A stretch of 64,000 nt of DNA. It comes from Burkholderia ubonensis (lineage in GTDB: Bacteria > Pseudomonadota > Gammaproteobacteria > Burkholderiales > Burkholderiaceae). Where the stretch lies: the NCBI RefSeq assembly GCF_001718695.1, contig NZ_CP013421.1, positions 558,001 through 622,000 on the forward strand. The letters run 5' to 3'. Below are positions 10,223 through 64,000 of the stretch, piece by piece (the first letter of the stretch is position 1; each line of letters starts with the position of its first letter). The position numbers and the translations under genes are program-made. Under the pieces are notes generated by a model, which did no database searches, was not told the origin of the DNA, and saw only the letters and a list, made by a program, of their open reading frames with translations.

Positions 10223-10232
10223 CGGCTAACAC

Positions 10233-15232: not shown

Positions 15233-15462
15233 AGCGGGGGGCGGCCCGCACTCCCCCGGCGACGGCAACCGCCGACCGGTCGACTACCCTCGCGCCCGAC
15301 CCACCGCTCGCGATCGAACCGCCCCCGCCGTGCGCGATCCCGGGCGCCCGGGGAGCCGCTCGCTCCCGCGCCAGCCCGCGGATCATCCCGTTTCCCGGCA
15401 TTGACGTGATATCGTGCGCATCGACAGAAGCGTCCACCATTCATTCCGTCATGAGGGGCGAC

Positions 15463-34217: not shown

Positions 34218-35381
34218 TCAGCCGTCGTGCTGGCCCAAATTCGCGCGTGCAGCGCGCTGGTAAGCGGGGGGCCCGCCACCGCCCGACCGAGATCGCCCGG
34301 CCGAACCCGTCCGGTCACGAATTTCGCCACCGGAGGTCGGGCCTCGCCCGTTACGGTTGAATGCCCGCCCGATCGCCGCGACGAGGCTTCGCGACGCGAT
34401 GCCGGCCACAAACGCGCCGAACCCTGACAGCGTGGCGCCGCCAGACAGGCCCGCTGCAACCGCAGGCAGTTGCCAACCGATCATCGCGAGGAACACCCCG
34501 GTCGCAAAGAGCCCAAGCGCGGCAGCCGCTGCGGCGGCGTCGTCGAGTGCGGCGGAAACGGCTTGCATCAGGGCTGACGAATCGGCACCGGGGGCGCGGC
34601 CCGTCGCGTGGAACGCAGTGAGATCGGTCGAGAACGCCGTGAGCGCCATGCCAAGGAAGGCAGCCACCAGCACCTGTAGCAACGCGTAATTGGCAACCTT
34701 CGCGGTCCACGCTTCGAAAAATCGCGCCGTCGGCGCAAACGCGGCGCACGCGATGAAGATCGGGCCCAGTCCGAGCACGAGATCGAGCAGCGTCCTCGCC
34801 ATCACGACCTCGAAGACCAGCACGATCAAAAAGATGGACCCGCCGAGCGCCGCGACGAGGCCGCAGAGGAAATCTCCAATCGCGGCGGCCAGACCGCTCG
34901 GACTGATTCCCTCATGCGTCGCCTTGTTGAAGTAGGCGTCCATCACGAGGTCGACCTGCTGGTCGTAGCAGTCGAGCGTCTGATAAATGCTGCTCGCAGC
35001 GCTCTGTCCCGTCACGCTGCCACCGTTGGCAGAGCCGCATCCCGGATTGCCCCCGCCCGTCGTGTTCGCCGCGTTCTGGATGGTCTGGGCCAGCCCGGCC
35101 GTCGCGCCGTTGACGGCGGTGACGACCTGCTGCTGGTAGATCCCGGCGCTCAGCGCAAACGCCAGCGTGATCGACACTTTCAGCCCGCGCCAGGCAAACG
35201 CCGGCACCGCCTCGTGGGCTTCGCCGCGTACCACCGCGAGACCAAAGGCCAGCACCCAGATCGTGATGCCCGTAGTCACGACCGGCACGAGTGCTCCGGA
35301 AAGCGCCGACGATACGGTCGTCACGTAGGTCGACATGCCGTCGTCGAGGGTGCCCCCCAAGGCAGCAAAGAGACCGCTCAT
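34218..35381 (-). CDS. virB6: VirB6/TrbL polytopic membrane protein
   Basis: 387 residues with at least six hydrophobic segments, including ALVPVVTTGITIWVLAFGLAVV, FLCGLVAALGGSIFLIVLVFEVV and LLQVLVAAFLGMAL, and a polar Gly/Arg-rich C-terminal tail. Matches the VirB6/TrbL inner-membrane channel component. ATG 35381 is preceded by GGGAGG and overlaps the virB4 stop by 4 bp. Confidence 0.9.
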   Translation of the reverse strand: MSGLFAALGGTLDDGMSTYVTTVSSALSGALVPVVTTGITIWVLAFGLAVVRGEAHEAVPAFAWRGLKVSITLAFALSAGIYQQQVVTAVNGATAGLAQTIQNAANTTGGGNPGCGSANGGSVTGQSAASSIYQTLDCYDQQVDLVMDAYFNKATHEGISPSGLAAAIGDFLCGLVAALGGSIFLIVLVFEVVMARTLLDLVLGLGPIFIACAAFAPTARFFEAWTAKVANYALLQVLVAAFLGMALTAFSTDLTAFHATGRAPGADSSALMQAVSAALDDAAAAAAALGLFATGVFLAMIGWQLPAVAAGLSGGATLSGFGAFVAGIASRSLVAAIGRAFNRNGRGPTSGGEIRDRTGSAGRSRSGGGGPPAYQRAARANLGQHDG

Positions 35382-37846: not shown

Positions 37847-37847
37847 C

Positions 37848-38168
37848 TCATGCCCTCCTCTTCAGGCGCACCGGCACATAGGCGTGTGCGCCCCAGAAGC
37901 GGCGGTTGCCCTGACGCAACGCCATGCGAGCGCGCCGCGCATGCTGCGCAAGCCGTTGATCGTCGTGGCGCGTCGTCATCCGCATCGCGACGAACACCGG
38001 AATCATCAAAAGGAGGATCCCGACACCCAGCGCAGGGCTGGCCAGCAATGCCCAGATCGCGGGAATCAGCATGCTGCCGCCGATCATCAGCAAGGGCACC
38101 AGCGGCACACCCCAGAGCATCGCGGGCCGCGTGCAGCCTTTGAAGACAGGATCCTTGAGCGAATGCAT
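37848..38168 (-). CDS. virB3: VirB3 inner-membrane protein
   Basis: 106 residues beginning LKDPVFKGCTRPAMLWGVPLVPLL, the conserved VirB3/TrbD start (a short polar N-terminus, a 'P-x-F-x-G-x-T-R-P' motif) followed by two closely spaced membrane helices (~18-60). Sits between the pilin and VirB4 genes as usual. Confidence 0.92.
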   Translation of the reverse strand: MHSLKDPVFKGCTRPAMLWGVPLVPLLMIGGSMLIPAIWALLASPALGVGILLLMIPVFVAMRMTTRHDDQRLAQHARRARMALRQGNRRFWGAHAYVPVRLKRRA

Positions 38169-38184
38169 GGTTCGGCGCCCCGGA

Positions 38185-38526
38185 TCAGCTCGAAGGAATC
38201 AGCATGCCAGCGATAACGGTCGCGCAACCGACGAACAAGCCGCCGATAAACACGTTCGCGATATCACCGAACCGGGCATGCTGGAACATCATCCGAAAAC
38301 CCGCCCAAATGATGGAAATTGAACAAATCACGCCCCCGACGCTCAACAACGTCGCCTGGATCGTATCGAGCAGCGTATTGACCTGCGATAGCTGCGCGCG
38401 CGCCGGTGCAGTGAACATCAAGGACGAAGCGCCAAGAATGATTTCCAGCGCCGTCTTTCGATCGGATAGAAATCGCATCATCCGCTTGGCGCGCATCGAC
38501 GATTTATATCGCATTCCTAAATGCAT
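38185..38526 (-). CDS. virB2: VirB2 pilin
   Basis: 113 residues. Long signal region ending at PARAQLS (about residue 45), then two hydrophobic helices (LLSVGGVICSISIIWAGFRMMF and IANVFIGGLFVGCATVIAGML) typical of TrbC/VirB2 pilins. AAAGGAG seven bases before ATG 38526. Confidence 0.9.
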   Translation of the reverse strand: MHLGMRYKSSMRAKRMMRFLSDRKTALEIILGASSLMFTAPARAQLSQVNTLLDTIQATLLSVGGVICSISIIWAGFRMMFQHARFGDIANVFIGGLFVGCATVIAGMLIPSS

Positions 38527-38573
38527 GATCGACTCCTTTCCGATATATCTATATCTGATTCGTCAATGTGGAC

Positions 38574-39251
38574 TTAGAACACCACTGCACTACCGTCCGG
38601 TTTGAAACGCTGCTCGGTAACAGGTGAAGCCGTGTTCATCCCATCGCGATCGCTGCGCGATAGCTGCCGAACCGCAGGTTCAGAGCGGGCGGCACGAACC
38701 GGCACTGCAGAACCAATCGGTACCACCGCAATGGGCGCAATGGCCGGAACGTGCGAATCTGAGGAAGCTTGTGCCGCTGCGCTCTCCTCGACTCGCTGGA
38801 CGTAGCCCGTTCGGTAGCCGGTCGAGAAATTGCCGCTCGCATAGCAAGACAGACTCGCGCGTAGTGCGGCCTGTACATCCGCCTGATAATCGGTCCTCGC
38901 TTGGGACTTTTGGATCGTCACCGCCGCTGTATAACAGCGATGGAGAATGGCAGCACCGACAGCTAGGTTGCGACAAGGCTCAAGCGCGTTCTCGGCGGAC
39001 AGGCCATAGGCCAGCCAGTTCGCTCGATTCACCTGCGCGAGCCCGACACTGAAATTCCAGCCGCCGGCCTCCAGCGCGCGTACCGTCGCGACCGCTTCGG
39101 CCATATTCGACGGCTGTCGACGCAGCCGCCCGCGAACGACGCCGATCGCGTAGGGATTGAATCCTGATTCGGTACGCACGATCGCCGCCATCGTGGCCGG
39201 GGCGATCTGCGGCGCGCAGTCGTGCACGAGCGACAAGAAATCGAGCGGCAT
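38574..39251 (-). CDS. virB1: VirB1 lytic transglycosylase
   Basis: 225 residues. SLT-type transglycosylase: CAPQIAPATMAAIVRTESGFNPYAIGV contains the catalytic Glu (near 28), and FSVGLAQVNRANW and the NLAVGAAILHRCY segment complete the fold (~5-140). The C-terminal ~80 residues are Ser/Pro/Ala-rich. No obvious Sec signal. Opens the cell wall for T4SS assembly. Overlaps kikA by one base (TAATG). Confidence 0.92.
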   Translation of the reverse strand: MPLDFLSLVHDCAPQIAPATMAAIVRTESGFNPYAIGVVRGRLRRQPSNMAEAVATVRALEAGGWNFSVGLAQVNRANWLAYGLSAENALEPCRNLAVGAAILHRCYTAAVTIQKSQARTDYQADVQAALRASLSCYASGNFSTGYRTGYVQRVEESAAAQASSDSHVPAIAPIAVVPIGSAVPVRAARSEPAVRQLSRSDRDGMNTASPVTEQRFKPDGSAVVF

Positions 39252-43444: not shown

Positions 43445-44005
43445 TCAGTCCGGTCGCACACGCGCGAGCGGTCTACCGCTATCGGCCAGCGCGACCGCCA
43501 CCACGATCTCGTTCGGCGCCGGCGCATCGGCGAGCGTCAGCGAGACCGTGTCGAAGTGGTCGAAGCTCCACATGTCGGTGCTGCCGTGCAATGGAATGTC
43601 CATGCACGTCCCCGGCGCGCCGCGCTTGGTCACTGACGGGATCAGCGACGTGGCGCCGGGCAAGCTCTCGCGCATGGCCTTGCCCATGCGGGGATGCAAG
43701 ATCGCCGCCGCGCATTCGAGCGGTACCTCGCTGCCCACGAGCGCGGCCTTGCCGTAGGCCTGAATTGCCGACGGCGGAAGATCCAGCGCCCATCGCGCAC
43801 GGCCTGTGAGCAACGTGCCAAGCTCAGCGCCCAGTTCATAGAGCGGCTCAAGCGCCGCAAGCGACTCATCCGCTCGCCAGCCCTCTAGTCGCAGCACCGC
43901 CGCCACGATGACTTGTCGATGAGGCGGGTCAACCGGTACATCTAGTTCTGCCAGTCGCTCGACCAGTTGAACCAGGATCTTCGCGATAGGCGGACTCATC
44001 TGCAC
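43445..44005 (-). CDS. Amino acid synthesis (AA_synth, DUF1185-like) family protein
   Basis: 186 residues. Matches the 'amino acid synthesis' family (PF06684-like): VDPPHRQVIVAAVLRLEGW, AIQAYGKAALVGSEVPLECAAAILHPRMGKAMRESL, VTKRGAPGTCMDIPLHG, PNEIVVAVALADSGRPLARV. Such genes commonly accompany amidases and amide/amino-acid transporters; the chemical role is not established. Overlaps the amidase gene by 10 bp, indicating coupled translation. Confidence 0.8.
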   Translation of the reverse strand: MQMSPPIAKILVQLVERLAELDVPVDPPHRQVIVAAVLRLEGWRADESLAALEPLYELGAELGTLLTGRARWALDLPPSAIQAYGKAALVGSEVPLECAAAILHPRMGKAMRESLPGATSLIPSVTKRGAPGTCMDIPLHGSTDMWSFDHFDTVSLTLADAPAPNEIVVAVALADSGRPLARVRPD

Positions 44006-45408
44006 ACCTCCGAGTCCTCAGTCCGATCCCGGAGCGCCTCAGGTGGAGCCGGAAACGGACCACGTGCGCACTCGTACGCCCGTGCCGCGCGCAGCACCAG
44101 CGCATCGCTGCCTGACGGGCCGATGATCTGTAGGCCCGTCGGCAACCCACCCGGCAATCCACAGGGCACACTCGCCGCCGGCAAGCCAGTCTGGTTGCAC
44201 CACGACGTCAACGGCGGCGCCATGCGCGAGTGCTCGGGCCGCCCCTGCGCGAGCGGCGGCGCACAATGGAATGTCGGTGTGAGCAGTAGGTCGTAGTCTT
44301 CAAAGAACGCGGCCATCGCCACCGTAAGCGTGTGGCGCGCCTGAAGCGCGTCGACGAAGGTCGAAGTGGGGACGCTATCGCCCGCCTCGGCCAGCGCACA
44401 CACATCCGGATCGAGCTGGCGCCGCGCGGAAGGAGAAAGCTGCCGTGCTCGTTGCGCAAAGAAGACGGCCCACTGGATGGCGTGCATGCCGCTCTCCAGA
44501 TAGCCGTCGAGCGGCTTCACGGCGGTTTCCTCGACCTGTGCCCCAAGCGCCTCGAACAGGCTCACCGCCTGACGGACGCTCAAGGTGATGTCGGGCTCGA
44601 CCTGTACCCCCGCAGGTGCCGGGCAATAGGCAATGCGCAACCCGGCGATGCCATCATCCAGACCGATACGCAGATCGGGACAAACAAAGGCCTGACTTCG
44701 CGCATCGCTCTGGCGAGCCATCACGGTAAGCATCAGCGCCGCGTCGCTAACGCAGCGAGCGATCGGACCAAGCGTCGACAGGTGGGTCCAACTCACCGCC
44801 GCGCCGGCAGGCACTCGGTTGAACGACGGTTTCATTCCGACCACCCCGCTCCAGCAAGCTGGAACGCGGATCGAACCGCCGCCGTCGGTGGCCAGTGACA
44901 ACGGTCCCATGCCGAGCGCAACCGCTACGGCTGATCCACCGCTGCTCCCGCCGGACGTCAGACGCCGATCCCATGGGTTACGGGTAATGCCGGTGAGCAG
45001 GCTGTCCGTGACGATCTTGTTGCCAAACTCCGAGGTCGTAGTCTTGCCGAACAGCAGCGCGCCGGCCTGTCGCAGTCGCGCGACCGCGGGTGCGTCATCG
45101 GCCTCCGGCGCGCTAGGTGACGTAAGCGATCCGTATCGTGTCGGCAGCCCACGCACGGCGACGAGGTCTTTGACCGAGACCGGCACGCCATCCAGTAATC
45201 CACATGGCTCCCCGCGCATCCAGCGCCGCTCGGACTCGCGAGCGGCGGCCAGCGCGCTGTCCTCGTCGAGACTGCACACGCCGTTGACAAGGGGATTGAA
45301 GAGCGCGACCCGGTCCAACACAGCGCAAATAACCTCCACCGGCGAGAACGAGCGGCGTCGGTAGCCAGCCATGAGCTGCTCGGCATTCACTCCCAATACA
45401 TCATTCAT
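43996..45408 (-). CDS. Amidase-signature hydrolase
   Basis: 470 residues. Catalytic triad of the amidase-signature family: Lys80 (VPVSVKDLVAV), cis-Ser155 in GGSSGGS, and nucleophile Ser179 (TDGGGSIRVPA). Complete length. ATG 45408 has AAGG upstream; a GTG two codons earlier is possible. It follows the importer genes after 46-52 bases and precedes the AA_synth gene, so it probably hydrolyses the imported amide. Exact substrate cannot be read from the sequence. Confidence 0.9.
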   Translation of the reverse strand: MNDVLGVNAEQLMAGYRRRSFSPVEVICAVLDRVALFNPLVNGVCSLDEDSALAAARESERRWMRGEPCGLLDGVPVSVKDLVAVRGLPTRYGSLTSPSAPEADDAPAVARLRQAGALLFGKTTTSEFGNKIVTDSLLTGITRNPWDRRLTSGGSSGGSAVAVALGMGPLSLATDGGGSIRVPACWSGVVGMKPSFNRVPAGAAVSWTHLSTLGPIARCVSDAALMLTVMARQSDARSQAFVCPDLRIGLDDGIAGLRIAYCPAPAGVQVEPDITLSVRQAVSLFEALGAQVEETAVKPLDGYLESGMHAIQWAVFFAQRARQLSPSARRQLDPDVCALAEAGDSVPTSTFVDALQARHTLTVAMAAFFEDYDLLLTPTFHCAPPLAQGRPEHSRMAPPLTSWCNQTGLPAASVPCGLPGGLPTGLQIIGPSGSDALVLRAARAYECARGPFPAPPEALRDRTEDSEVCR

Positions 45409-45460
45409 ATGCACACCTTAATAATTTAAAGAAATTTGGACGTGTTTGAAGACCTCAGGC

Positions 45461-51345: not shown

Positions 51346-52363
51346 ATGAGCAGCGATCTTTTGATCTGACGGCGCGCGAACTGAACGCAATCTATGCGAC
51401 TGGGCATGCGTCGCCAGTAGACTTGATGCATGCGAGCCTCGCGCGTCCAGTCGCTCGGTCCGTCGGTGAATGCGTTCTGCCGGATCGCCGATGACGCACT
51501 CGACTTCGCGGGCGCGTCCGAATTACGATGGCGGCGCGATGCGCCGCTTGTCACGTCGGTCCGATGACGCGTCGCGTGGAAGATGCCGCGCAGACGCTGA
51601 CAATCATCAGCCGGCCAGACAGCCGCGACTGGTACACGTTGCGATTCGATGGCGCCGACTACGTGCGCGGACTGCCGTGCCCACCCGTACCGGGTGGCGT
51701 CCGTTTTGCCAGCAGTCCTACGCTCGGATTGTCGGTCACCGTCGACGCAGCGATCCACGATCGCCGACACCCGGGCTGCCGCGATGTTTCGCGAATGGGG
51801 GGGCGCTCGTTCAGGTCACCGATCCCCCGGGCGTCGCGCAATGCAATGCGGTCTACACAATCCTCTGGCATGCCTGCTGCCATCAACTTTCGGACGGCAT
51901 GACCGACCGTTGGGCCGAGCTCGATCCGTCGCTGCAGGCATATGCACAAGCCGGTAACGGCATCTCGCGGGAAGCATTGCTCGGCGCACTAATCGAACGA
52001 GGCGAGCTGGGGGCTGCCGTGAACGCGTTCTTCGAACAACACGACCTCCTCATCTGTCCCGTGTATCCGCACGTGGCACCGTCACTTGCCGAGGTGAATT
52101 CGAGCAACGCGCTGTTTCCGCATTTCACCGCATGGTGCCATCAGTTGAGCCTGCCGGCGGCGAGCCTCTATGCCGGGCTGACTGCCTCACGCCTGCCCAT
52201 CGGGATTCAAATTGCAGGCGGCCGTCATGCCGATGCACTGGTACTGTGGGCGAGCCATATGCTTGAACGCGCGTTTGGGTCCGCCCCGTTTGCCGAACTC
52301 GCACGTGTGCTCTCTATGCCCACCACGGCCGCCGACATGACATCTGCCCGATGTGCGTCCTGA
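51346..52363 (+). pseudogene. Amidase-signature gene, internally deleted and frameshifted
   Basis: ATG 51346 has a good ribosome site but reads only seven codons. A shifted frame continues FDLTARELNAIYATGHASPVDLM (51360 on), then VQSLGPSVNAFCRIADDALDFA, an amidase N-terminus. It then jumps to SVGPMTRRVEDAAQTLTII (about 51555), so the part with the catalytic Lys and Ser residues (GGSSGGS, DGGGS) is missing. Two more frames give SSPTLGLSVTVDAAI and NAVYTILWHACCHQL ... LPIGIQIAGG to the stop. Certainly non-functional. Confidence 0.8.
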
Positions 52364-53467: not shown

Positions 53468-54709
53468 ATGTCACAGTGGGTGAAGTCGTCTCAGGCGCAA
53501 TCCACGCTTGCGACCATCCGGGCCAACCTCTTGGCCGACGGGCTGGAACTGGATCAGCTTGCTGCACGCATGCGGTTGCACGGCCCCGAAGCCGACCGGA
53601 CACGGCAGATTCCAGATGCAGTTTGTGCCCCCTCTGACGTAACTGCGCTGAACTTGAATCTCGTTCCGGCCGCATACGGCGGTAGCACGGACGTGCAATC
53701 ACTGATGTCGCGCACCACACTGATGGAATATCTCGGGTACGCCGACGCGGCGCTCGCGCTCGCGCTGCCCGGCCCTGGCCTTGCCATGCCACCCGTCCTC
53801 GCACTCGCCAGCGGCGAGCAACAGACCCGCTTTTTCCAACGATTTCGCAGTGACACACCACGCTGGGGCGCGTTTGCAATTACCGAACCCGACTGCGGCT
53901 CGGATGCGACCGCGATGCGGACCACCGCTCGCAAGACAGCACGCGGCTGGGTGCTGAACGGTACCAAGTGCTTCATCACCAACGGCGCACGCGCGGATGA
54001 CGTGATCACGTTCGCCACCATCAATCGGCACGCTGGTCGTTTCGGCGTTCGAGCGTTCCACGTCGATCGCAATATCCCGGGGTTCTCTGTCGTTCGCATC
54101 GAAAACATGGTCGGCCTGCGCGCCAGTCAGCTTGCGGTTCTCTCTTACACCGATTGCGAAGTACCTGACGACGCGCTTCTCAGACGCGGTGACGAAAAAT
54201 CCCTCAACGACGCGTTTTCGGGCGCACAACACGCATGGAACTACTTCCGCCCCCTGCTTTCCGCAGTCATGGTCGGCGCATGTCGACGAGTACGCGACGA
54301 TCTCGCGACCTACTTCGAAGCAGGCAGACATCCGGTGAATCAACGCCAGTGCACTGCCGATGTGAACGCAGCTCTGCTCGATATCGATCGGCAAATCACT
54401 ACGGCCCAGCTGCTCTGCAGACACGCGGCGTGGAAAACCGATCAAGGCATTGCGACGCCGATGGATTCGTCAATGGCCAAGGCATATGCATCACAAATAG
54501 CCGCCCGCGTCACCCGAACTGCAATCGATTTCGCCGGCCTTGATGGCGTCACTGCCTTTCCATCGCTTGAGCAAAGCTATCGCGATGCAAAGGCCTTCGA
54601 CATCATGGAAGGCACCGGGGACCTGCAGCGGCTCATGATTGCTCGCTTCGCACTCCGCTCGGTATCACTCCCCTGGGAGGCCACCTCTTCCGGGTCGCAC
54701 CGCTCCTGA
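53468..54709 (+). CDS. Acyl-CoA/acyl-ACP dehydrogenase (first of two in cluster)
   Basis: 413 residues. Complete ACAD fold: FAITEPDCGSDATAMRTTA and WVLNGTKCFITNGARADDV bind FAD/substrate; the C-terminal SYRDAKAFDIMEGTGDLQRLMIAR carries the likely catalytic base Glu381. In carrier-protein pathways such enzymes desaturate aminoacyl- or acyl-ACP. ATG 53468 chosen for the AGGAGG upstream. First gene of ten, 49 bases before the acyl carrier protein gene. Substrate inferred only. Confidence 0.87.
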   Translation: MSQWVKSSQAQSTLATIRANLLADGLELDQLAARMRLHGPEADRTRQIPDAVCAPSDVTALNLNLVPAAYGGSTDVQSLMSRTTLMEYLGYADAALALALPGPGLAMPPVLALASGEQQTRFFQRFRSDTPRWGAFAITEPDCGSDATAMRTTARKTARGWVLNGTKCFITNGARADDVITFATINRHAGRFGVRAFHVDRNIPGFSVVRIENMVGLRASQLAVLSYTDCEVPDDALLRRGDEKSLNDAFSGAQHAWNYFRPLLSAVMVGACRRVRDDLATYFEAGRHPVNQRQCTADVNAALLDIDRQITTAQLLCRHAAWKTDQGIATPMDSSMAKAYASQIAARVTRTAIDFAGLDGVTAFPSLEQSYRDAKAFDIMEGTGDLQRLMIARFALRSVSLPWEATSSGSHRS

Positions 54710-54758
54710 GAAGCCCACCCATCCTGAATCCATTCGACATTCGCACTGGAGATCGTTC

Positions 54759-55037
54759 ATGGCAACCCATCCCGTTTCCCCCAACTCCGCCAGCGTGTCC
54801 GAGACAGTAAAAACCTGTTTGCTATCGGTACTCGGCAGCACCCTGAGCGCCGATCTCATCGTAGACGACACCAACCTCTTCGACATCGGTGTGGATTCGA
54901 TGAATATGACGGACTTGCTGCTGCAACTCGAACAGCGCTTCGGCTTCACCCTGGCCCCCGAGGATCTATCCGCCAATCTGTTCCTGCGTTTCGGCAATCT
55001 CGTCTCGTTCGTCGAATCCCATGCGTCCTTCGGCTAA
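54759..55037 (+). CDS. Stand-alone acyl carrier protein
   Basis: 92 residues. LFDIGVDSMNMTDLLLQLEQRFGF contains the phosphopantetheine serine (Ser47) in the expected helix II context. TGGAGA precedes ATG 54759. It presumably carries the substrate activated by the AMP-ligase of this operon. End overlaps the next gene by 17 bp. Confidence 0.92.
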   Translation: MATHPVSPNSASVSETVKTCLLSVLGSTLSADLIVDDTNLFDIGVDSMNMTDLLLQLEQRFGFTLAPEDLSANLFLRFGNLVSFVESHASFG

Positions 55038-56058
55038 CTTCACGGTCGTCGAGCCGCACATTGTCGCCACGGCAAGATATATCCCACAGCGCGATGTCCC
55101 GGCCGATGCACATCTCGAACCATTCATGGATTCGGGTGGGTCCGCACGAGAGGCTGTAATGCAAGCCGTGTATGCCGACACGCTGCGGTGGCGCGACAGC
55201 GGAGCCCCATTCGGCGTGGCCGGTATTCCATTGCCGCACACATCACGAGCGACGAATCACCGGGTCGCTGTGGAGTCTGACCTGACATTATCCGACATGG
55301 CACTTGCCACGGCGCGAATGCTACTCGATTCATCGCATCAGAACGCTGCGTACCCGCTCGATCAGTTCATCGTATGCACAACGAGCTTCGAGCATGATCT
55401 AGCATTATCGTGTGCCTGCCGTCTCCACAGCGAACTCGGATCAAGCCGAGCCCCGCTCGCGGTCGGTCAGCTTCAGGGCGTATCGTTCCTGATGGCATTG
55501 GACATTGCCGTGGCAATGATGGCAACTGATATCCGACTGAATACCGTCGTGATTGTCGCTGCTGAACGCTGGCGTCAGCCGTTCTCACGTCGGATCGGTG
55601 CATTGGTCGACATGGGTGACGGGGCAGCTGCCGTACTGATCGCGCGACACCCCGGCCCGGGATGGCGCGTGAGGGGGCTCACCGTCCGGACGCCCGGAAT
55701 CCCACCTCTCGCAAGTGAACGCGAACCCGTCTACATATCGACGCTCACGGAGGTCATCGGCGAGACGTGCGCAAGCGCAGGTGTGCAACCTGCCAATGTC
55801 GACTGGATCCTTCCGGCGCCAATCGACGCTCATGTGGCTCGCGCAATCCACAGGCGATGTGGATTGCGGCACGAACGTGCCTGCCACCTACGCATGGACG
55901 CGCCCGGCCAATTTTGCGCCGCCGACACGCCGGCACGGCTCGACGCGCTGCTGCGGTCGATCCACCCTAACGAGGGACAACATGCCCTTGCTTGGTCCGC
56001 CGGCTTCCAAGGGCAGGCCGGTTGCGCTCTCCTTGAATTTCGTGGAGGTCGATCATGA
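55021..56058 (+). CDS. FabH-like protein without catalytic Cys/His (PqsB-like partner 1)
   Basis: 345 residues, thiolase/KAS III fold. The site of the nucleophile, normally Cys before S-G-F-L, reads LQGVSFLMALDIAVAM: Gly153 replaces Cys. The His motif (L-P-H-x-A) reads ILPAPIDAHV with no His. VVIVAAERWRQPFSRRIGALVDMGDGAAAVLIARH is the usual 'glycine-rich' KAS III stretch. Overlaps the ACP gene by 17 bp and the next, catalytically intact, FabH-like gene by 4 bp. The pair resembles PqsB (non-catalytic) with PqsC. Confidence 0.8.
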   Translation: MRPSANFTVVEPHIVATARYIPQRDVPADAHLEPFMDSGGSAREAVMQAVYADTLRWRDSGAPFGVAGIPLPHTSRATNHRVAVESDLTLSDMALATARMLLDSSHQNAAYPLDQFIVCTTSFEHDLALSCACRLHSELGSSRAPLAVGQLQGVSFLMALDIAVAMMATDIRLNTVVIVAAERWRQPFSRRIGALVDMGDGAAAVLIARHPGPGWRVRGLTVRTPGIPPLASEREPVYISTLTEVIGETCASAGVQPANVDWILPAPIDAHVARAIHRRCGLRHERACHLRMDAPGQFCAADTPARLDALLRSIHPNEGQHALAWSAGFQGQAGCALLEFRGGRS

Positions 56059-57002
56059 TTGCGTCGCAACAGGCTAGCTCGCTTGCACTCGCTGGCATCG
56101 CATTCAGTCTGCCAGATCGAACTGTGGACGCACATCGCTGGGCGCAGCGCTGTGGTCAGCCGTCGACTCGCGCGCGCGCACTGATCGAAAACGGCGTAAC
56201 GCAGTTCCACGACGCGGCTGGTGAATCACCCGTGGCGCTCGCCGTTGACGCTATCTTGTCCCTGCTACGCGACACCGGAACAGCGCCTGAAACGATCGAT
56301 GCATTGGTGTACACGCACACAATTCAGACCAGCGTGATCGCACCGCCCGCGAGTACTGCGCAACAGATCCAGTCCCAACTGAATCTGAACCGCGCGCTCG
56401 CATTTTCAGTCACGCAGCAGCACTGCGTCTCGCCCATAGCCGCGATCCGCGTGTTGCAGGCGCTCGCTTTGCGACGGCCCGCATTCCGGCGTGCAATTGT
56501 GGTCTGCGCCGATGTGATCGGCTCCCACTGCGACCGACTGCGAGCCATCCAGGATCTTGCGCTCCATAGCGACGGTGCCTGTGCGCTATTGCTCGAACGA
56601 GACGGTCATCGAAACGCCATTGCGGGCCTGCACATGTATACAGACGGACGATCTTACCGTGGCACCGACGAGGATCTGCAGCCGGTTCCAGACGATCGGT
56701 ACTACTGGTCTGCATTCACGACCATGCGGGCCGCCATTCAACAAGCAGGCATCACGACACGCGAGATTACACACGTACTGCCTCATCACGCCAGTCTGCC
56801 GGGCTGGTTCAGACTGATGACAATGCTTGCCATTCCTCACGAGCGACTTTTCACGGCGAACTTCGCACCAATCGGTCACGTCTTTGGCGCGGATCCCTTC
56901 ATTAACTTCCAGACATGTTCGACCCGGGAACCGGGCGGCTGGTCGCTGCTGTTCTCCTGCGGCCTCGCTGGCTGCTTCGGTGCCATGGTGGTCCGTCACT
57001 GA
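56055..57002 (+). CDS. FabH-like condensing enzyme with Cys-His (PqsC-like partner 1)
   Basis: 315 residues, KAS III fold. AFSVTQQHCVSPIAAIRVL gives Cys124 as nucleophile; VLPHHASLPGW gives His244/His245. The Asn of the canonical Cys-His-Asn triad is absent (APIGHVFGADPF), as described for PqsC. Likely loads an acyl chain on Cys124 and condenses it with a carrier-bound or CoA-bound partner. ATGA overlap with its Cys-less partner. Confidence 0.82.
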   Translation: MIASQQASSLALAGIAFSLPDRTVDAHRWAQRCGQPSTRARALIENGVTQFHDAAGESPVALAVDAILSLLRDTGTAPETIDALVYTHTIQTSVIAPPASTAQQIQSQLNLNRALAFSVTQQHCVSPIAAIRVLQALALRRPAFRRAIVVCADVIGSHCDRLRAIQDLALHSDGACALLLERDGHRNAIAGLHMYTDGRSYRGTDEDLQPVPDDRYYWSAFTTMRAAIQQAGITTREITHVLPHHASLPGWFRLMTMLAIPHERLFTANFAPIGHVFGADPFINFQTCSTREPGGWSLLFSCGLAGCFGAMVVRH

Positions 57003-57052
57003 TCGCCTGAACGACCTCCTTTCAACGCTCGACATTCGATCCGGATACTGCC

Positions 57053-58672
57053 ATGAGAAACGTCCTCGACCTCGTACAAGCTGCAGCAAACCGCACGCCC
57101 GACGCGGAAGCGCTCATCTGCGGCGCCGCCCGCGTAACCTATCAGAACTTGGTTCACCGCGCGCGCGGCATGGGCAATGCACTCGACGCACTTGGATTCA
57201 CGGCCGGCGCGCGCATTGCGATCTATTTGGACAAACGTGTCGAAACCGTCGTGTCGATACTGGGTGCCGCTGCCGCGCAATACGTGTTCGTTCCCATCAA
57301 TCCGCTCCTCAAACCCAAGCAGGTCGCTCACATCCTGCTCGACTGCGGGGCCGACTGCCTGATTACCAGCGCGCTGCGCGCGCGGGTCCTTGACGAACAC
57401 GGCCTTACCAGTGTTTCCAACACCATCATCGTGGACGATGCCGGCTCCGCAAGCCGCCAACTCCGAACAACAGCGCGCGTCCAAAGCTGGCCCGAGTCCG
57501 CAAACGGAAATCGCTCGGAACGCGATAGTGAGAATCCACCACAATCGCCGGGGTCGGCCAATGTCGACACCGATCTGGCCGCCATCCTCTATACATCAGG
57601 CTCGACCGGATTGCCGAAAGGCGTGATGCTGAGCCACCGCAACCTGCTCGAAGGTGCCTGGAGCGTTGCTCACTATCTGAACTACGTCTCATCCGATCGA
57701 ATCCTCGCTGCCCTGCCGCTCAGCTTCGATGCCGGCCTGAGTCAGCTTACATCGGCCTGGGCGGCGGGAGCCACCGCCATGCTCATCAACTATCTGGTAC
57801 CGCGAGACATCATTGATGCCTGCGCGAGCGAACGCATTACGGCGATCACGGGCGTCCCCCCCTTGTGGATGCAACTGGCCCGTGCGAATTGGCCCGAAAC
57901 GGCACGCTCGACGCTGCGCTACTTCGCCAACACCGGCGGCAAGCTGCCGGCGCCGGTCTTGCAGCAACTCCGGGCATTATTTCCGCAGGCCAAACCCTAT
58001 CTCATGTATGGCCTGACCGAGGCATTTCGCTCCACGTTTCTCGACCCTTCAGAGGTCGATCGTCGCCCCGACTCCATCGGGAAAGCCGTACCTAACGCCC
58101 GAATTCTGGTCGTTCGCGATGATGGCTCGCCGTGTGGAGCTAACGAAACCGGTGAACTGGTCCATGTTGGAGCTTGCGTCACGCTCGGTTATTGGAATGA
58201 CGCGACGCGCACGGCCCAGCGCTATCGACCTTCGCCCGAGCCGAAGCCCGGCGGCGCGCCGCGAGAGCGCGCTGTGTGGTCAGGCGATCTGGTACGGCGC
58301 GATCCAGAAGGATTCCTGTACTTCGTCGCACGCAACGACGCGCAGATCAAGAGCTCCGGTTATCGCATCAGCCCTGAAGAGGTCGAAGAAGTCGTTCATT
58401 GCAGTGGCCTTGTCACAGAAGCGGTTGCCTTCGGCGTGGCTGACGATGAACTCGGCGAAGCGATCGCCCTGGTGGTCGTGCCGATCGCCAATGGCTTCGA
58501 TGCTCAAGTGCTTCAAGGCTGGTGCGTCGAGCATTTGCCGCGCTACATGGTGCCGCATCGCATCGTGGTCCGTGAGACCGTTCCGCGCAACCCCAACGGG
58601 AAATTCGATCGAGCCGGATTGCGCGCTGCCTTCGCCGCTCCTGACGCCGGCCACGAAGTGAGACCATCATGA
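57053..58672 (+). CDS. AMP-forming acyl/aminoacyl-ACP ligase
   Basis: 539 residues. ANL superfamily: A3 loop LYTSGSTGLPKGVMLSH (near 180), A5 MYGLTEAFRSTF (near 320), A7 WSGDLVRRDPEG (near 408), A8 hinge KSSGYRISPEEVEE and catalytic Lys of A10 PRNPNGKFDR (near 515). It resembles the AMP ligases that sit beside a carrier protein and PLP decarboxylase in exosortase-A loci and in butirosin-type (BtrJ-like) logic. Probably charges Ser47 of the ACP with an amino acid. ATGA overlap with the decarboxylase gene. Confidence 0.88.
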   Translation: MRNVLDLVQAAANRTPDAEALICGAARVTYQNLVHRARGMGNALDALGFTAGARIAIYLDKRVETVVSILGAAAAQYVFVPINPLLKPKQVAHILLDCGADCLITSALRARVLDEHGLTSVSNTIIVDDAGSASRQLRTTARVQSWPESANGNRSERDSENPPQSPGSANVDTDLAAILYTSGSTGLPKGVMLSHRNLLEGAWSVAHYLNYVSSDRILAALPLSFDAGLSQLTSAWAAGATAMLINYLVPRDIIDACASERITAITGVPPLWMQLARANWPETARSTLRYFANTGGKLPAPVLQQLRALFPQAKPYLMYGLTEAFRSTFLDPSEVDRRPDSIGKAVPNARILVVRDDGSPCGANETGELVHVGACVTLGYWNDATRTAQRYRPSPEPKPGGAPRERAVWSGDLVRRDPEGFLYFVARNDAQIKSSGYRISPEEVEEVVHCSGLVTEAVAFGVADDELGEAIALVVVPIANGFDAQVLQGWCVEHLPRYMVPHRIVVRETVPRNPNGKFDRAGLRAAFAAPDAGHEVRPS

Positions 58673-59877
58673 ACGCGCAGTTTAGCGAGCGTGAAGGCAT
58701 CCTCACCGTCGGGGGCGTCGCGATCAATCGCCTGGCCGATCGCGCCGGGCGCACACCCTTCTTCGTCTACGATCGGGCAACGCTCGATGCGCGTGTATGC
58801 ATGTTGCGCGAGACGCTGCCAACCGGTATCGACCTGCATTACTCGGTCAAGGCCAACCCATTGCCTGCGGTCGTCCATCACCTCGCGCCTCAGATGGACG
58901 GGTTCGACGTCGCATCGGCCAACGAGATGGCAGTTGCGCTGAATGCGGGCATGCCCGCAGAACTGATTGGCTTTGCCGGCCCAGGCAAGAGCCGCGACGA
59001 CTTGCGTCGCGCCGTCGCAAGCGGTGTCAACATTCACCTCGAATCGGTCACCCAGCTGCGCCTCGTCACAGCACTCGGCTGGGAGCTCGGTGTGCAGCCG
59101 AAGGTCGCCATTCGAGTCAACCCGGACTTTCACGTCGATCACAGCGGCATGCGCATGGGTGGCGGAGCCAGCCCTTTTGGGCTCGATGCGGAGCAGGTGC
59201 CTGAGCTACTGCGCGAGCTCGATGCTAGAGACGTGACGTTGGCCGGTTTCCACATTTTTTGGGGATCCCAGTGTCTGCACGCCCCGACCGTCATCCACGC
59301 GCAACGGAAAAGCGCGGATCTCGTCGTGCGATTGGCCGGCGGCCTGCCAGTCGCGCCGCAATACGTGAACTTCGGAGGCGGTTTCGGTATCCCCTATTTC
59401 GCGGGGGAAACACCGCTGGACCTCGCTGCGGTCGCCGACGCCATGCACGATTGGCTCGGCGTATTGCGCGGTCGTTTACCGGGCACACGCACGGTCCTGG
59501 AATTTGGACGATATTTGGTCGGGGAAGCCGGCATCTATGTGTGCCGCATTATCGATCGCAAGATATCCCGAGACAGAACGTTCCTGATCACGGATGGCGG
59601 CCTGCACCACCATCTGGCGGCATCGGGGAACTTCGGGCAGATTCTGCGCCGCAATTTTCCAGTCACGATCGGGAATCGCCAGACTCAAGCCCCCACGGAG
59701 CGTTGCCACATCGTCGGATGTCTGTGCACGCCGCTCGACCGGATCGCCGACGACGTGCTGCTTCCCGAAGCTCAGATCGGAGACTTTGTGGTTGTCTTCC
59801 AATCGGGTGCGTATGGACGCTCGGCCAGCCCCAGGGACTTTCTTGGCCACCCTGATGCGATCGAGATGCTCGTCTGA
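58669..59877 (+). CDS. Fold type III PLP-dependent decarboxylase
   Basis: 402 residues, ornithine/diaminopimelate decarboxylase family. PLP Lys61 in HYSVKAN, HIFWGSQ (His196), glycine loop GGGFG (237-241), EFGRYLV (variant of EPGR), and the C-terminal VGCLCTPLDRIADD with Cys, then QSGAYGRSASPRDFLGHP. The C-terminal 'C-TPLD-LA' style matches exosortase-A-associated and BtrK-like enzymes, some of which act on ACP-bound amino acids, rather than LysA. Predicted to decarboxylate the ACP-bound amino acid. Confidence 0.88.
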   Translation: MNAQFSEREGILTVGGVAINRLADRAGRTPFFVYDRATLDARVCMLRETLPTGIDLHYSVKANPLPAVVHHLAPQMDGFDVASANEMAVALNAGMPAELIGFAGPGKSRDDLRRAVASGVNIHLESVTQLRLVTALGWELGVQPKVAIRVNPDFHVDHSGMRMGGGASPFGLDAEQVPELLRELDARDVTLAGFHIFWGSQCLHAPTVIHAQRKSADLVVRLAGGLPVAPQYVNFGGGFGIPYFAGETPLDLAAVADAMHDWLGVLRGRLPGTRTVLEFGRYLVGEAGIYVCRIIDRKISRDRTFLITDGGLHHHLAASGNFGQILRRNFPVTIGNRQTQAPTERCHIVGCLCTPLDRIADDVLLPEAQIGDFVVVFQSGAYGRSASPRDFLGHPDAIEMLV

Positions 59878-59905
59878 TCAAGCTCTTTCTTTGTGGAGGA
59901 TGGTG

Positions 59906-61015
59906 ATGTTCTCCCCTGATTCCTTCCCGCCGGGACTGGCGCTAGCGCCGTGGATACTGACCGACGATCAACGCAACCTCTATATCGCGAGCCAACGCTT
60001 CGCGCGCGACCGACTGGAGCCCTTGCTTGCGGGTTCACCCAGTGCAGCAGCATGGCGAGAAACCGTCAGACTCGCAGCCGCAACACTTGATCTTGGAACA
60101 ATGGTTTTACCCGAAGAACACGGCGGATTGGGAATCGATCGTCACGGTCTGGCAGTGGTTATCGAAGCGCTCGCCGCCGGGCCGCTTGAGCGTGCGGTGG
60201 AGCTAACGCTGACAGCGCCCGCGCTCATGGTGCTCCGGACGCACAAAGCGCTCGGTTCGGTTCTGGCTCGGCCTGTTCAAGCGTACTTCGACGGCACAAC
60301 AGCGATCGCGCTGTCCGTGCCCGGTATCGACAGCGGGGCAATATGGCAACTTGGTCCACTGGGCAGCGAGGTGAGCCTTGCCATGCGCATAGATGACCAG
60401 CAGCGCCTCGTCCTCACCGAGCGCCCACGCGATCGGCGATCTTCAAGATCGACAGGCATCGCCACGCTCGGCGCGCTCGTGTTGGAGCAATTGCATTCAG
60501 ATGAGGTCGCGGCCGAAACGCCGCTCGCCGTGATTGCACGGGCCGACAGCGATAGCGTTCCTCCCGCGCAGACGTACATGACGGAAATCGGCCTCTATCT
60601 CGCTGCGCTCTTGATGGGTGCCATGCAACATAGTATCCGGTTCGCGTTCGATTACGCGACGACTCGGCAAGCGTTCCGAAAGCCGTTGGCAAGCCATCAA
60701 CTCGTCGCGACGCGATTGTCCGACATGATGATCGCCACCATTGGTACCCATCTCTTTCTGCAGGCAGTAGGTACGGCTTGCCCGTCGGCACCGGTCTCGC
60801 TGGTCCGTCAGCTGCTGCGACACGTCGCGGCCGAGTCGGTCAACGTCAGTCGCGAATTCGTGCAGCTTTGCGGCGGCCATGGTTATGTTGAAGGTCTCCC
60901 GCCCGCAGCCCGCTTCCAGACGGGCCACTGGGTTGCCTTCCTACTGCAGCACATCGACACAGCGCTCGGCTGGCTCGCGCCGCCACGGGTGGCAAAAGAG
61001 GAGGTCGACAGATGA
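59906..61015 (+). CDS. Atypical acyl-CoA dehydrogenase (second, partner-like)
   Basis: 369 residues. Recognisable ACAD N-terminus (LDLGTMVLPEEHGGLGIDRHG) and FAFDYATTRQAFRKPLASHQLVATRLSDM. The middle FAD-binding ITEPxxGSD motif is lost and the C-terminus reads EFVQLCGGHGYVEG rather than YEGT. Such divergent ACADs often form heterotetramers with an active partner; the first gene of this operon is the candidate. ATG 59906 has GGAGG seven bases upstream. ATGA overlap with the GNAT gene. Confidence 0.8.
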   Translation: MFSPDSFPPGLALAPWILTDDQRNLYIASQRFARDRLEPLLAGSPSAAAWRETVRLAAATLDLGTMVLPEEHGGLGIDRHGLAVVIEALAAGPLERAVELTLTAPALMVLRTHKALGSVLARPVQAYFDGTTAIALSVPGIDSGAIWQLGPLGSEVSLAMRIDDQQRLVLTERPRDRRSSRSTGIATLGALVLEQLHSDEVAAETPLAVIARADSDSVPPAQTYMTEIGLYLAALLMGAMQHSIRFAFDYATTRQAFRKPLASHQLVATRLSDMMIATIGTHLFLQAVGTACPSAPVSLVRQLLRHVAAESVNVSREFVQLCGGHGYVEGLPPAARFQTGHWVAFLLQHIDTALGWLAPPRVAKEEVDR

Positions 61016-61605
61016 ATGGCTGCGCCCCTACGGATGGCACCCCTCAGCCCTCGATGGACAACGCAGCATCGCCTGCAACGTCCTCCACTGTCTGGCTACG
61101 CGAACCAGGGCTGAATGACATCGACGACATCGTCGCCTGGCTCGCACAGCCGACTATTAGCCGGTGGTTCGACTTCGGGCTTGGCCGCCAAACCCTGCCC
61201 GCATTGGCGGTACAAGCGATGGTCCATAGCAGACAGCATCGAATACGCGTATTCGGTTCGGCTGGCTATACAGTGCCGAGCGGTGTGGTCGCCGTCAGTG
61301 ATGTCGCACATCGCTTCGCGACGGGCTCATTCTGGATCCTTCGCGACCGGTTGCGACCAACCTGCATCAATATGGCTTGCAACGCAGCGACAGCCCTCCT
61401 TCATGAAGCGTTCGTTCGTGATCGGCTGCAGTGCATCGCCGCATGGGCTGTCGACTGCAATGTTCCGTCGCAACGTCTGCTCGCGCGCCTGGGTTTTCGT
61501 CTGATCGGACAGCAACGCGCCTGTCATCTCGTCGATGGCAGGCGCGTCGGGCGACTCCTTTACGACCTGCTGCCCGAGAACCTCCCACTACTACGCGCAC
61601 CATGA
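61012..61605 (+). CDS. GNAT-family N-acetyltransferase
   Basis: 197 residues. Residues ~28-190 read as a GNAT fold: LREPGLNDIDDIVAWLAQPTISRWFDFG, and the C-terminal acceptor motif AWAVDCNVPSQRLLARLGFRLIGQQ (the 'N-x-x-S-xx-LxxxxGF' motif). Could acylate an amine released by decarboxylation. Embedded by ATGA overlaps on both sides, so part of the pathway. Confidence 0.85.
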   Translation: MNGCAPTDGTPQPSMDNAASPATSSTVWLREPGLNDIDDIVAWLAQPTISRWFDFGLGRQTLPALAVQAMVHSRQHRIRVFGSAGYTVPSGVVAVSDVAHRFATGSFWILRDRLRPTCINMACNAATALLHEAFVRDRLQCIAAWAVDCNVPSQRLLARLGFRLIGQQRACHLVDGRRVGRLLYDLLPENLPLLRAP

Positions 61606-62642
61606 ATACAGCCGTGATCACGGCACTGGCCAGCTATGTGCCGCGTACAGTCGCTGTACATCGTGAGCCCGGAATCGAGCCGACGCTCGGTGCTCCGATG
61701 CGCTCCGGTTGGCACGCGTGGGTCGCGTCGTGGCAAGCGGACTACGTCCGCTACTCCACGAAGAAGGCGGCTTCGGCCGGAAGCGCTGCAATCGGCGCAG
61801 CGCCAGACGAATTTCGTTGTGTCCCTGTTGAGGGCGATACCGATCTATCCGGGCTCGCCGCCAAAGTGGCGCAGACAATATGTGCCGCGCGGCCAGCCAA
61901 TGCAGCGCCGATCGATATTGCAATGTTCTGCCACAGTAGTCTCAACGAGCACATGTCCACAACGACCGCTGGACGCCTGCGTACGGTAGTCGGCACTCCA
62001 TGCTTTCCATTCTCGGTCTCGCAACAGCAGGGGGCTTCCACGTTCACAGCACTCCAGTTGGCGGATAATCTGCTGATTGCAGAGCCCGAAATCCACACTA
62101 TCTTGATCGTCGCTGCAGAAAAGTGGTGCCCACCATTCTCACGATGGACGGATCAGGGAATCGTGCAGGGCGACGCAGCCGGTGCCATCTTGGTGGAGCG
62201 CGCCGGACCCGCATCTTACGGACTGCTTGTGATCGACGCATGCGCCAGCCGCCTCGACAGGTTCCGAACACACACCCCGCTGTCAAGCCAAGATATCCCG
62301 ACAGATTGGGTTCCGGCGCTGCGATTGACGATCGACGCGATGCTGCTCCGACACGCGCTTCAACCGAACGACCTCGGTACCGTCGTGGGAGCGGGAATCG
62401 ATCCGCAACTTGAAGAAGCTGTTTGCCGACATCTCAGTCGCCGTGTCGTTGAATTTCCCGAGCGCTGCCGCGCCCATCTAGGCGCAGCCGAACCTATCGT
62501 GCAGCTCGCCGATGCCCTGGAATCTCACGACCTGCCAGTGCGCGAACGAATCCTGACGTGGGGCATCGGCCTGGGCGGTTTCGTTGGTTGCACACTGTTC
62601 GAATCGTATGGCAGGCCGCTCTTATATCGCAATCCTCCATGA
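61602..62642 (+). CDS. FabH-like protein without catalytic Cys/His (PqsB-like partner 2)
   Basis: 346 residues. Same architecture as the gene at 55021. FSVSQQQGASTFTALQLADNL has Gly144 where Cys is expected. The His position reads VVGAGIDPQLE, without His. ILIVAAEKWCPPFSRWTDQGIVQGDAAGAILVERAG parallels the first Cys-less copy, suggesting an ancestral duplication. ATG 61602 overlaps the GNAT stop; the end overlaps the last FabH-like gene by 4 bp. Confidence 0.8.
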   Translation: MNTAVITALASYVPRTVAVHREPGIEPTLGAPMRSGWHAWVASWQADYVRYSTKKAASAGSAAIGAAPDEFRCVPVEGDTDLSGLAAKVAQTICAARPANAAPIDIAMFCHSSLNEHMSTTTAGRLRTVVGTPCFPFSVSQQQGASTFTALQLADNLLIAEPEIHTILIVAAEKWCPPFSRWTDQGIVQGDAAGAILVERAGPASYGLLVIDACASRLDRFRTHTPLSSQDIPTDWVPALRLTIDAMLLRHALQPNDLGTVVGAGIDPQLEEAVCRHLSRRVVEFPERCRAHLGAAEPIVQLADALESHDLPVRERILTWGIGLGGFVGCTLFESYGRPLLYRNPP

Positions 62643-63565
62643 GCGCTTCTATCGGGATCGTCCATACCGCTTACTATCTGCCCGAGCCGGCCGAGGACGT
62701 CCGCGGCTGGGCCCAACGAACCAAGCAGTCCGTCGAGACCGTCAAACGCCTCGAAAAAGCCGGGGTGCGACTGTTCTATAACGCTCGGGGACAGACTGCA
62801 CTTTCGCTCGCCGCAAACGCCATCCAGTCCCTCGTTTGTGCGACCCGGCTTGGGCCGGACACGATCGACTTTCTCGTCTATGTTCATACGCTTCAGGGCA
62901 GCGTCGCCCCTCCGCCACTATCCTTGCCACGTCTGCTATGCGAACACTTTGGCTTCGAGCGGGCAGAGGCATTCTCGTTTGCGCAACAGCATTGCGCCTC
63001 ATCACTGGGGGCGCTGCGGATCATTCGCGCGATGTTTGCGGCCCGTCCAGCGATCAATCGCGGCCTGCTGGTCGGGGCAGACGTCATGCCCCTTGCAAGC
63101 GAACGGTCAATAGCCGGGGCCGGATTGCTCAGCGACGGCGCGTGTGCCGTGCTGGTCGAACGCGACGCCTCGATCAATCGCTTGGTTTCGCTGGCGTTTC
63201 ACGCGAGCGGAGAAGGCTGGCGCGGCACACTGGAACAAGATGAATCGCGTTTCGCGGCGCAGTACTTCTTTGCGGCGCGTCGACTCGCGATGCAAGCGAG
63301 CGCCGAGGCGAATGTGCCCCTCGCCGAGATTCAGCGAATCTTGCCGTGCCATCTTGATCTACCCACCTGGCGCCGAACGGTCGCATCGCTCGGCCTTCCC
63401 GCACGACACCTGTTTGCTGATAACTTTGTCCGCATCGCGCATGTGACGGTCTGCGATCCATTCATCAATCTCGCCGACTGCGGTGACCTGGTTCCCGGTA
63501 AGCCTTTCCTGCTATGCGCCCGCGGAGTGGGAGGATTTTCTGCGGCGGCGCTCTTCGTTCGCTAA
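62639..63565 (+). CDS. FabH-like condensing enzyme with Cys-His (PqsC-like partner 2)
   Basis: 308 residues. AFSFAQQHCASSLGALRII gives nucleophile Cys119; ILPCHLDLPTW gives His238 (matching the second His of the first copy). Canonical Asn is absent (VRIAHVTVCDPF). Shares with the gene at 56055 the ends DPFIN plus a terminal hydrophobic strand, and the WRGT motif. ATGA overlap with its Cys-less partner. Last gene of the operon. Confidence 0.82.
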   Translation: MSASIGIVHTAYYLPEPAEDVRGWAQRTKQSVETVKRLEKAGVRLFYNARGQTALSLAANAIQSLVCATRLGPDTIDFLVYVHTLQGSVAPPPLSLPRLLCEHFGFERAEAFSFAQQHCASSLGALRIIRAMFAARPAINRGLLVGADVMPLASERSIAGAGLLSDGACAVLVERDASINRLVSLAFHASGEGWRGTLEQDESRFAAQYFFAARRLAMQASAEANVPLAEIQRILPCHLDLPTWRRTVASLGLPARHLFADNFVRIAHVTVCDPFINLADCGDLVPGKPFLLCARGVGGFSAAALFVR

Positions 63566-63832: not shown

Positions 63833-64000
63833 ATGAGAACGCGATTTCGGGATCGAACGAGCAGACAAGTGCTCAAGCCATCACCATGGAATGCCACATT
63901 AGCGACTCGAATGGTGAAAATCCTGTCGCTCTTTACCGATGCAAAGGATATTTCTTCGCTTTCAGACTCACTTGGAGATGCGGTACTTCCATTGGGATTT
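63833..64000 (+). CDS. N-terminus of unknown protein, truncated by window edge
   Basis: ATG 63833 with GAGG upstream, open to the window end (56 codons: MRTRFRDRTSRQ..., then LATRMVKILSLFTDAKDISS and AVLPLGF). No family can be assigned from so short a piece. The 'L..L.DAV..LGF' pattern would be compatible with the start of a LuxR-type autoinducer-binding domain, but that is weak. Confidence 0.4.
   Translation, partial: MRTRFRDRTSRQVLKPSPWNATLATRMVKILSLFTDAKDISSLSDSLGDAVLPLGF

Follow-up and report, generated by a model that had tools for sequence, protein, structure and literature searches.

Two candidate heterodimeric acyltransferases of the ketosynthase III fold in a conserved ten-gene operon of Burkholderia ubonensis and its relatives

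A ten-gene operon of Burkholderia ubonensis encodes four proteins of the ketosynthase III (KSIII) fold in two adjacent pairs, B1-C1 and B2-C2, and in each pair the first protein (B) has lost the nucleophilic Cys that the second (C) keeps. The operon lies in the window analysed here, a stretch of 64,000 nucleotides (positions 558,001 to 622,000 of contig NZ_CP013421.1, assembly GCF_001718695.1) from a genome of 6.68 Mb in three contigs. We read the pairs as two heterodimers belonging with the KSIII-like acyltransferases ChlB3, CerJ and DpsC, with a probability of roughly 0.58. An earlier note on this DNA had recognized the four FabH-fold proteins and their pairing within one operon, which the open reading frames bear out (Table 1), and had likened them to PqsB/PqsC. 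Profiles, trees and active-site residues oppose a tie to that pair over other FabH-like groups, and the residues match those of ChlB3, CerJ and DpsC. What stands of the proposed PqsBC-like design is two conserved pairs of active and inactive subunits with the fold of β-ketoacyl-acyl carrier protein synthase III (KAS III), analogous to PqsBC and probably not its kin.

The genes run on the plus strand from 53468 to 63565 in the order ACD1, ACP, B1, C1, LIG, DEC, ACD2, GNAT, B2, C2, with 4-base overlaps within B1-C1 (55021-57002) and within B2-C2 (61602-63565). The ATG of B2 at 61602 lies inside a longer reading frame (61431-62642), as does that of C2 at 62639 (62558-63565). Wherever the contig continues, the two pairs occurred together. 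Residue counts were made over 17 loci, own locus and some near duplicates included; the rows of L005 and L012 were dropped from the C2 counts (they held C1) and that of L012 from the B2 counts (it was B1). The nucleophile place was Cys in C1 at 17/17 loci and in the true C2 at 15/15. It was Gly (13), Ser (2) or Asp (2) in B1 (n = 17), and Gly (14) or Ser (2) in the true B2 (n = 16). The earlier note was right about Gly153 and Gly144 in the window, and none of the 120 B proteins listed (153 found) had a Cys at this place (Gly 113, Asp 5, Ser 1, Ala 1). The missing nucleophile in B and the kept Cys in C are not due to chance.

The C subunits carry a recognizable active site. In 137 C-family rows, which overlap the cluster loci, the nucleophile was Cys in 136 and Ser in one, the place of FabH Asn274 was His in 137/137, and Asp stood five residues further on in 137/137, so that the family has an invariant Cys-His-Asp set with an H-x4-D motif. 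The ChlB3 triad is Cys113-His296-Asp301, with the same sites in CerJ, according to the part of PMC9573744 that describes them; in the ChlB3 sequence, G-H296-x4-D301 aligns with G-H275-x4-D280 of C1. ChlB3 and CerJ thus share with C the KSIII fold and the Cys-His-Asp set, with His and Asp five residues apart in ChlB3, and in the same excerpt they pass an acyl group from one carrier to another or onto a hydroxyl (chlorothricin, cervimycin). The invariant Asp and the match to ChlB3 led us to abandon a Cys-His-His triad of KAS I/II type for C1. The earlier note had likened C to PqsC for lacking the canonical Asn. The Asn is indeed absent, but His takes its place throughout, against Val299 in PqsC, for which a passage of PMC4807248 gives Cys129, His269, Val299 and no Asn. 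The His common to FabH, PqsD and PqsC was kept in 108/137 C-family rows. C1 had it at all 17 cluster loci (His244 in the window, in a DpsC-like His-His arrangement), with Asn instead in 7/79 C1-like database proteins, and the true C2 had Cys (2), Ser (5), Pro (4) or His (4) there (n = 15). The claim that both second members keep Cys and His therefore holds for Cys124 and Cys119, but His238 of C2 sits one residue past the FabH/PqsC His place.

The B subunits look like decayed copies of the C motif, because Cys is gone, the His place is variable, and Asp or Glu is mostly retained. Among the 120 listed B proteins, none of which has the full triad, the His place held Y 41, H 31, C 3, F 2 and Q 1 in relatives of B1 and Y 25, H 13 and N 4 in relatives of B2. 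Asp or Glu occupied the Asp place in 118/120 (D 76 and Q 2 in B1 relatives, E 41 and D 1 in B2 relatives). The statement that B2 lacks His in the L-P-H-x region is true of the window protein, but 18/42 B2 relatives carry His there. As to a shifted nucleophile, the nearby Ser155, invariant in B1 relatives, is probably structural because almost every C row has a Ser at the aligned place; Cys119 of B1 is also invariant (78/78). These two residues would suit four independent proteins, with C1 and C2 as homodimeric acyltransferases and B1 and B2 as homodimers with another job or nucleophile. C-type proteins without B do exist, and ChlB3 is described as a homodimeric acyltransferase in the same portion of PMC9573744. 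We nevertheless think this arrangement unlikely: B adjoins C with overlapping or nearly touching genes in both pairs and again at L038 and L100, Ser155 has its counterpart in C, and B changes faster than C.

A second alternative takes both pairs as decarboxylative condensing enzymes, like the daunorubicin priming ketosynthase DpsC, that extend a chain twice on a single acyl carrier protein (ACP). His244 and His275 of C1 correspond to His266 and His297 of DpsC, which has a Ser-His266-His297 site in the excerpt of PMC9573744 and falls on the same side of the tree. The nucleophile of DpsC is Ser, against Cys in C1. The first His is missing from C2 at 11/15 loci, that of the window among them, and no malonyl transferase, ketoreductase or second ACP was found among the ten genes, so we regard this alternative as improbable.

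The placement of B and C was examined in two trees. One of 41 rows held 30 B and C sequences, ChlB3, DpsC, two FabH, PqsD and six Burkholderia homologues of PqsB, PqsC and PqsD; subject to its long branches and fragment rows, its starred branch (96/92) separated the 30 B and C sequences, together with ChlB3 and DpsC, from FabH, PqsD and the Hmq proteins, with B as one clade (97/96) and C as another (100/97). The other tree had 60 rows, ChlB3 and DpsC not among them, and split Hmq and FabH from B and C at 100/99. Approximately unbiased (AU) tests on it gave p 0.0425 for C with HmqC and p 0.124, not rejected, for B with HmqB. The sister relationship of B1 and B2 that the earlier note had listed as a check did not appear in the 41-row tree, where B1 joined a third type of B (96/84) before B2, although a B1+B2 group was not rejected on the 60-row tree (AU p 0.422). 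Identity between the pairs in the window is 37% for C1-C2 and 25% for B1-B2, on which a recent duplication of the pair was rejected.

We consider it improbable that the B-C pairs are relatives of PqsB-PqsC condensing an acyl-Cys with a β-keto acid. The active/inactive design is alike, with PqsC also without the Asn and PqsB without all three catalytic residues in the passage of PMC4807248, and PqsC, one of the relatives of C1 with a solved structure, slightly outscores DpsC, ChlB3 and CerJ with C; but the 46 matches of the B profile include no chain of a PqsBC entry, PqsC ranks below FabH and PqsD, HmqB and HmqC lie on the FabH side of the tree, PqsC has Val where C has its invariant His, and the His of PqsC is missing from the window's C2. 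Membership in the PqsBC group was accordingly rejected on the C profile, the B profile and both trees, within the limit set by the B+HmqB clade. The single match of a C-terminal-half profile, Aquifex FabH at E 1e-3, was uninformative either way, and the absence of a chain named PqsB from the 50 listed structural matches of B1 excludes nothing.

Several observations weigh against reading the pairs as heterodimeric acyltransferases. The heterodimers, like the reaction type, substrate, product and regulation, are inferred. ChlB3 is a homodimer, whereas here a gene for a dead partner stands beside each active gene, in two pairs per operon. C is not always dependent on B, because C-type proteins at L043, L047 and L101 had no B match within 16-18 kb, and the invariant Cys119 shows that B has invariant residues of its own. 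Condensation is possible, since 108/137 C rows keep the canonical His, and one passage of PMC9573744 has ChlB3 and DpsC, CerJ alone excepted, carrying out Claisen condensation. The C profile scored Aquifex FabH highest (75.8 bits), then PqsD (61.2), PqsC (48.6), DpsC (46.9), ChlB3 (41.0) and CerJ (31.3), with other FabH entries falling between the named proteins, so that PqsC stands above the three acyltransferase-group proteins and FabH above all. FabH also led the B profile (82.2 bits), ahead of ChlB3 (63.5), DpsC (59.0) and PqsD (57.3). In the Foldseek order by E-value for C1, FabH was 1, NatS 4, DpsC 7, ChlB3 16 and PqsC 19, and for B1 ChlB3 (30.8), a FabH2 (30.5) and NatS (30.2) tied in the fold comparison. 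The 60-row tree supports B as one group at 79/44 only. In the 41-row tree, ChlB3 and DpsC entered as two joined fragments each (ChlB3 fills 42% of columns), CerJ was absent, and left out were the two longest B rows of the 60-row set (L038 and L100), two more third-type B rows, 7/14 third-type C rows and 3/8 loci. The substrate assignment of LIG and DEC rests on analogy, and no lux box of the form CTG-N10-CAG with dyad symmetry was found upstream of ACD1, luxR or luxI. Profile scores at such distance do not settle family membership; C1 alone scored PqsC at 29.6 and CerJ at 25.7, and B2 alone had ChlB3 as its first match. Our confidence in the acyltransferase assignment is kept lower because of the C profile scores and the support for B in the 60-row tree.

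The operon is conserved as a unit. At 17/19 cluster loci, own locus included, all ten genes occurred in identical order, with luxR-luxI next; contig ends truncate the remaining two loci, L005 and L012. Near duplicates among the 19 are L044 and the own genome, L014 and L007, and L046 and L008. The records that bear the cluster belong to Burkholderia (one of them, L006, a contig of B. aenigmatica), Trinickia, Paraburkholderia and Caballeronia. Within the genus, full C2 and C1 shared a contig in 9/65 genomes, and a tenth had C1 and a C2 cut by a contig end. In a sample of 398 genomes of the family, among matches listed at 400 bits or more, 21 had both C genes on one contig and two had C genes cut or split by contig ends; G167 (a single row above 400 bits) and G368 (a partial row) are cluster remnants, G036 belongs to the third type, and a further genome with the cluster, G014, is missing from the matches listed for this sample. 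L097 and L098 are decayed clusters in which only the C2/B2 end and luxR-luxI were detected. In L040 about 2.5 kb splits DEC (about 8294-10757), with the other nine genes in place. In L014, a metagenome-assembled genome, the LIG frame ends early, 842 bases before DEC, and a tblastn match nonetheless spans LIG.

A third complementary pair may be present in ACD1 and ACD2, which are separated by five genes and whose sequences make them look like the halves of an α2β2 acyl-CoA dehydrogenase. The EGT motif was present in ACD1 at 11/11 loci and in ACD2 at 0/11, and R..F.KP..HQ was present in ACD2 at 11/11. In an alignment of the window protein, ACD1 lacked the Arg..Phe..Gln stretch for the ADP part of flavin adenine dinucleotide (FAD). 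The same division is seen in ChsE4-ChsE5, whose α subunit has the Glu and the flavin ring and whose β subunit contacts ADP-ribose in the passage of PMC11153573. ChsE4-ChsE5 and IpdE1-IpdE2, both α2β2 acyl-CoA dehydrogenases, degrade steroids on coenzyme A, whereas ACD1 and ACD2 stand beside an ACP in a biosynthetic-looking operon. In all three pairs the catalytic half was better conserved, with means over seven loci of 70% for ACD1, 70% for C1 and 65% for C2, compared to 54% for ACD2, 53% for B1 and 50% for B2. Somewhat short of even odds, in our estimate, is the fuller picture of an operon built on three half-enzyme pairs, in which a KSIII-type acyltransferase fold has evolved its own heterodimer resembling that of ketosynthase and chain-length factor (KS/CLF): one old split would have given active C and dead B lineages, several pairs would have arisen later, and the dead subunit would set which acyl group is accepted.

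In the mechanism that we propose, C would be the active site, its Cys accepting an acyl group from ACP and His-Asp activating Cys and acceptor, and B, a dead paralogue, would complete the dimer and probably give the pocket its shape, the role that CLF has beside KS. LIG would load an amino acid, perhaps an acidic one, onto ACP, and DEC would decarboxylate it there. The analogy is with the vicenistatin starter enzymes VinN, VinL and VinO, likewise an adenylating enzyme, a stand-alone ACP and a decarboxylase dependent on pyridoxal phosphate (PLP), for which amino-acid decarboxylation requires the ACP thioester (PMC11284099, in excerpt); the Vin system differs in that no polyketide synthase is among the ten genes here. 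ACD1 and ACD2 would jointly desaturate the ACP-bound substrate, and GNAT would acylate an amine. B1-C1 may condense or transfer an acyl group, with C1 retaining both histidines like DpsC. B2-C2, which we restrict to transfer because C2 lacks the first His, would deliver to an acceptor atom (O, N or S), and this may be the release step. Two sequential acyl transfers or condensations, as suggested before, would still be the likeliest role of the pairs. The operon probably builds a small molecule.

Ketosynthases known to have a dead partner are KS/CLF, an obligate pair of active and dead ketosynthase with a Cys-His-His site (PMC12664062, in part), and, in the KAS III group, PqsBC, which a 2016 abstract called unique for its heterodimer. 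KS/CLF is alike in pair design but belongs to a different branch of the fold; a KAS I/II-type sequence family was discarded for B and C, whose Pfam matches were to the KAS III models PF08545 and PF08541. PqsB-PqsC shares the combination of active and dead subunits, and differs in its side of the tree, its Cys-His-Val site and the lack of a PqsB match for B. If the heterodimeric acyltransferase reading is true, such pairs would have had a separate origin in the acyltransferase branch, and a dead subunit would be a repeated solution for tuning acyl-transfer enzymes. Searches of the open-licence literature yielded no account of the cluster, of its product or of heterodimeric ChlB3/CerJ-type enzymes. 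What emerges is an operon conserved in the Burkholderia family and linked to quorum sensing, with a prediction for each active subunit, C1 to condense or transfer and C2 to transfer only.

C-type genes also occur in other settings. They stood with B, DEC and LIG in other clusters of Burkholderia and its kin (L035, L036, L037, L042, L099) and with an adjacent B at L038 and L100. Because partners vary in this way across these loci and L043, L047 and L101, the two-pair operon appears to be the more elaborate version of a wider type. L100 resembles a related cluster with one pair: its positions 7670-16940 hold B, C, a MATE-like transporter, LIG, an ACD2-like piece, a GNAT-like protein and ACD1, the transporter and the GNAT-like protein being assigned by eye, as was a luciferase-like monooxygenase. 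By eye, the lists of reading frames of L035 and L038 contain further KSIII-like proteins with the GH-x4-D motif.

Table 1. Genes of the operon and the adjoining luxR in the window
Gene	Position	Strand	Assignment and diagnostic residues
ACD1	53468..54709	+	acyl-CoA dehydrogenase-fold subunit; C-terminal catalytic Glu kept (IMEGTGDLQR)
ACP	54759..55037	+	stand-alone acyl carrier protein; attachment Ser in GVDSM
B1	55021-56058	+	inactive KSIII-fold subunit; Gly153 at Cys place, Gln297 at His place, Asp302 kept
C1	56055-57002	+	catalytic KSIII-like subunit; Cys124-His275-Asp280
LIG	57053..58672	+	AMP-forming acyl/aminoacyl ligase, TIGR03098 (687 bits; cut-off 592)
DEC	58669..59877	+	PLP-dependent decarboxylase, TIGR03099 (569 bits; cut-off 478)
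ACD2	59900..61015	+	degenerate acyl-CoA dehydrogenase-fold subunit; TRQAFRKPLASHQ (FAD ADP contact) kept, EGT absent
GNAT	61012..61605	+	N-acetyltransferase-like protein (PF13302)
B2	61602-62642	+	inactive KSIII-fold subunit; Gly144 at Cys place; His292..Glu297 relic, His not conserved
C2	62639-63565	+	catalytic KSIII-like subunit; Cys119-His268-Asp273; Cys237 (not conserved) at FabH His place
luxR	starts 63833..64000	+	continues past window end

Matches of B1, C1, B2 and C2 to the two KAS III Pfam models were weak (E 3.3e-4 to 3.5e-7), with the C-terminal model below cut-off for B2 and C2, and C1 had one additional sub-threshold match to a chalcone-synthase Pfam model. PF08541 matched the own genome at five places, which include B1, C1 and C2 and not B2. 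The exosortase label carried by LIG and DEC does not account for them, because no exosortase was found: TIGR02602 had no match in the own genome, nor any above cut-off in the control genomes, which left the search without a positive control.

Downstream of C2 lie luxR and then luxI, both complete in L002 (334-1116 and 1300-2004). The adjoining LuxR-LuxI genes suggest quorum control of the operon. A passage of PMC3742214 describes a xenR2/xenI2 system that makes 3-hydroxy-C8-homoserine lactone in some plant-associated species. Upstream of the operon, an open frame at 51470-52363 resembles by eye the C-terminal part of an amidase, and a complete amidase-like gene lies on the opposite strand at 43996-45414. 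Still further upstream, frames at 35378-39251 resemble by eye conjugation genes (VirB4-like, lytic transglycosylase-like), and this stretch may be a mobile element.

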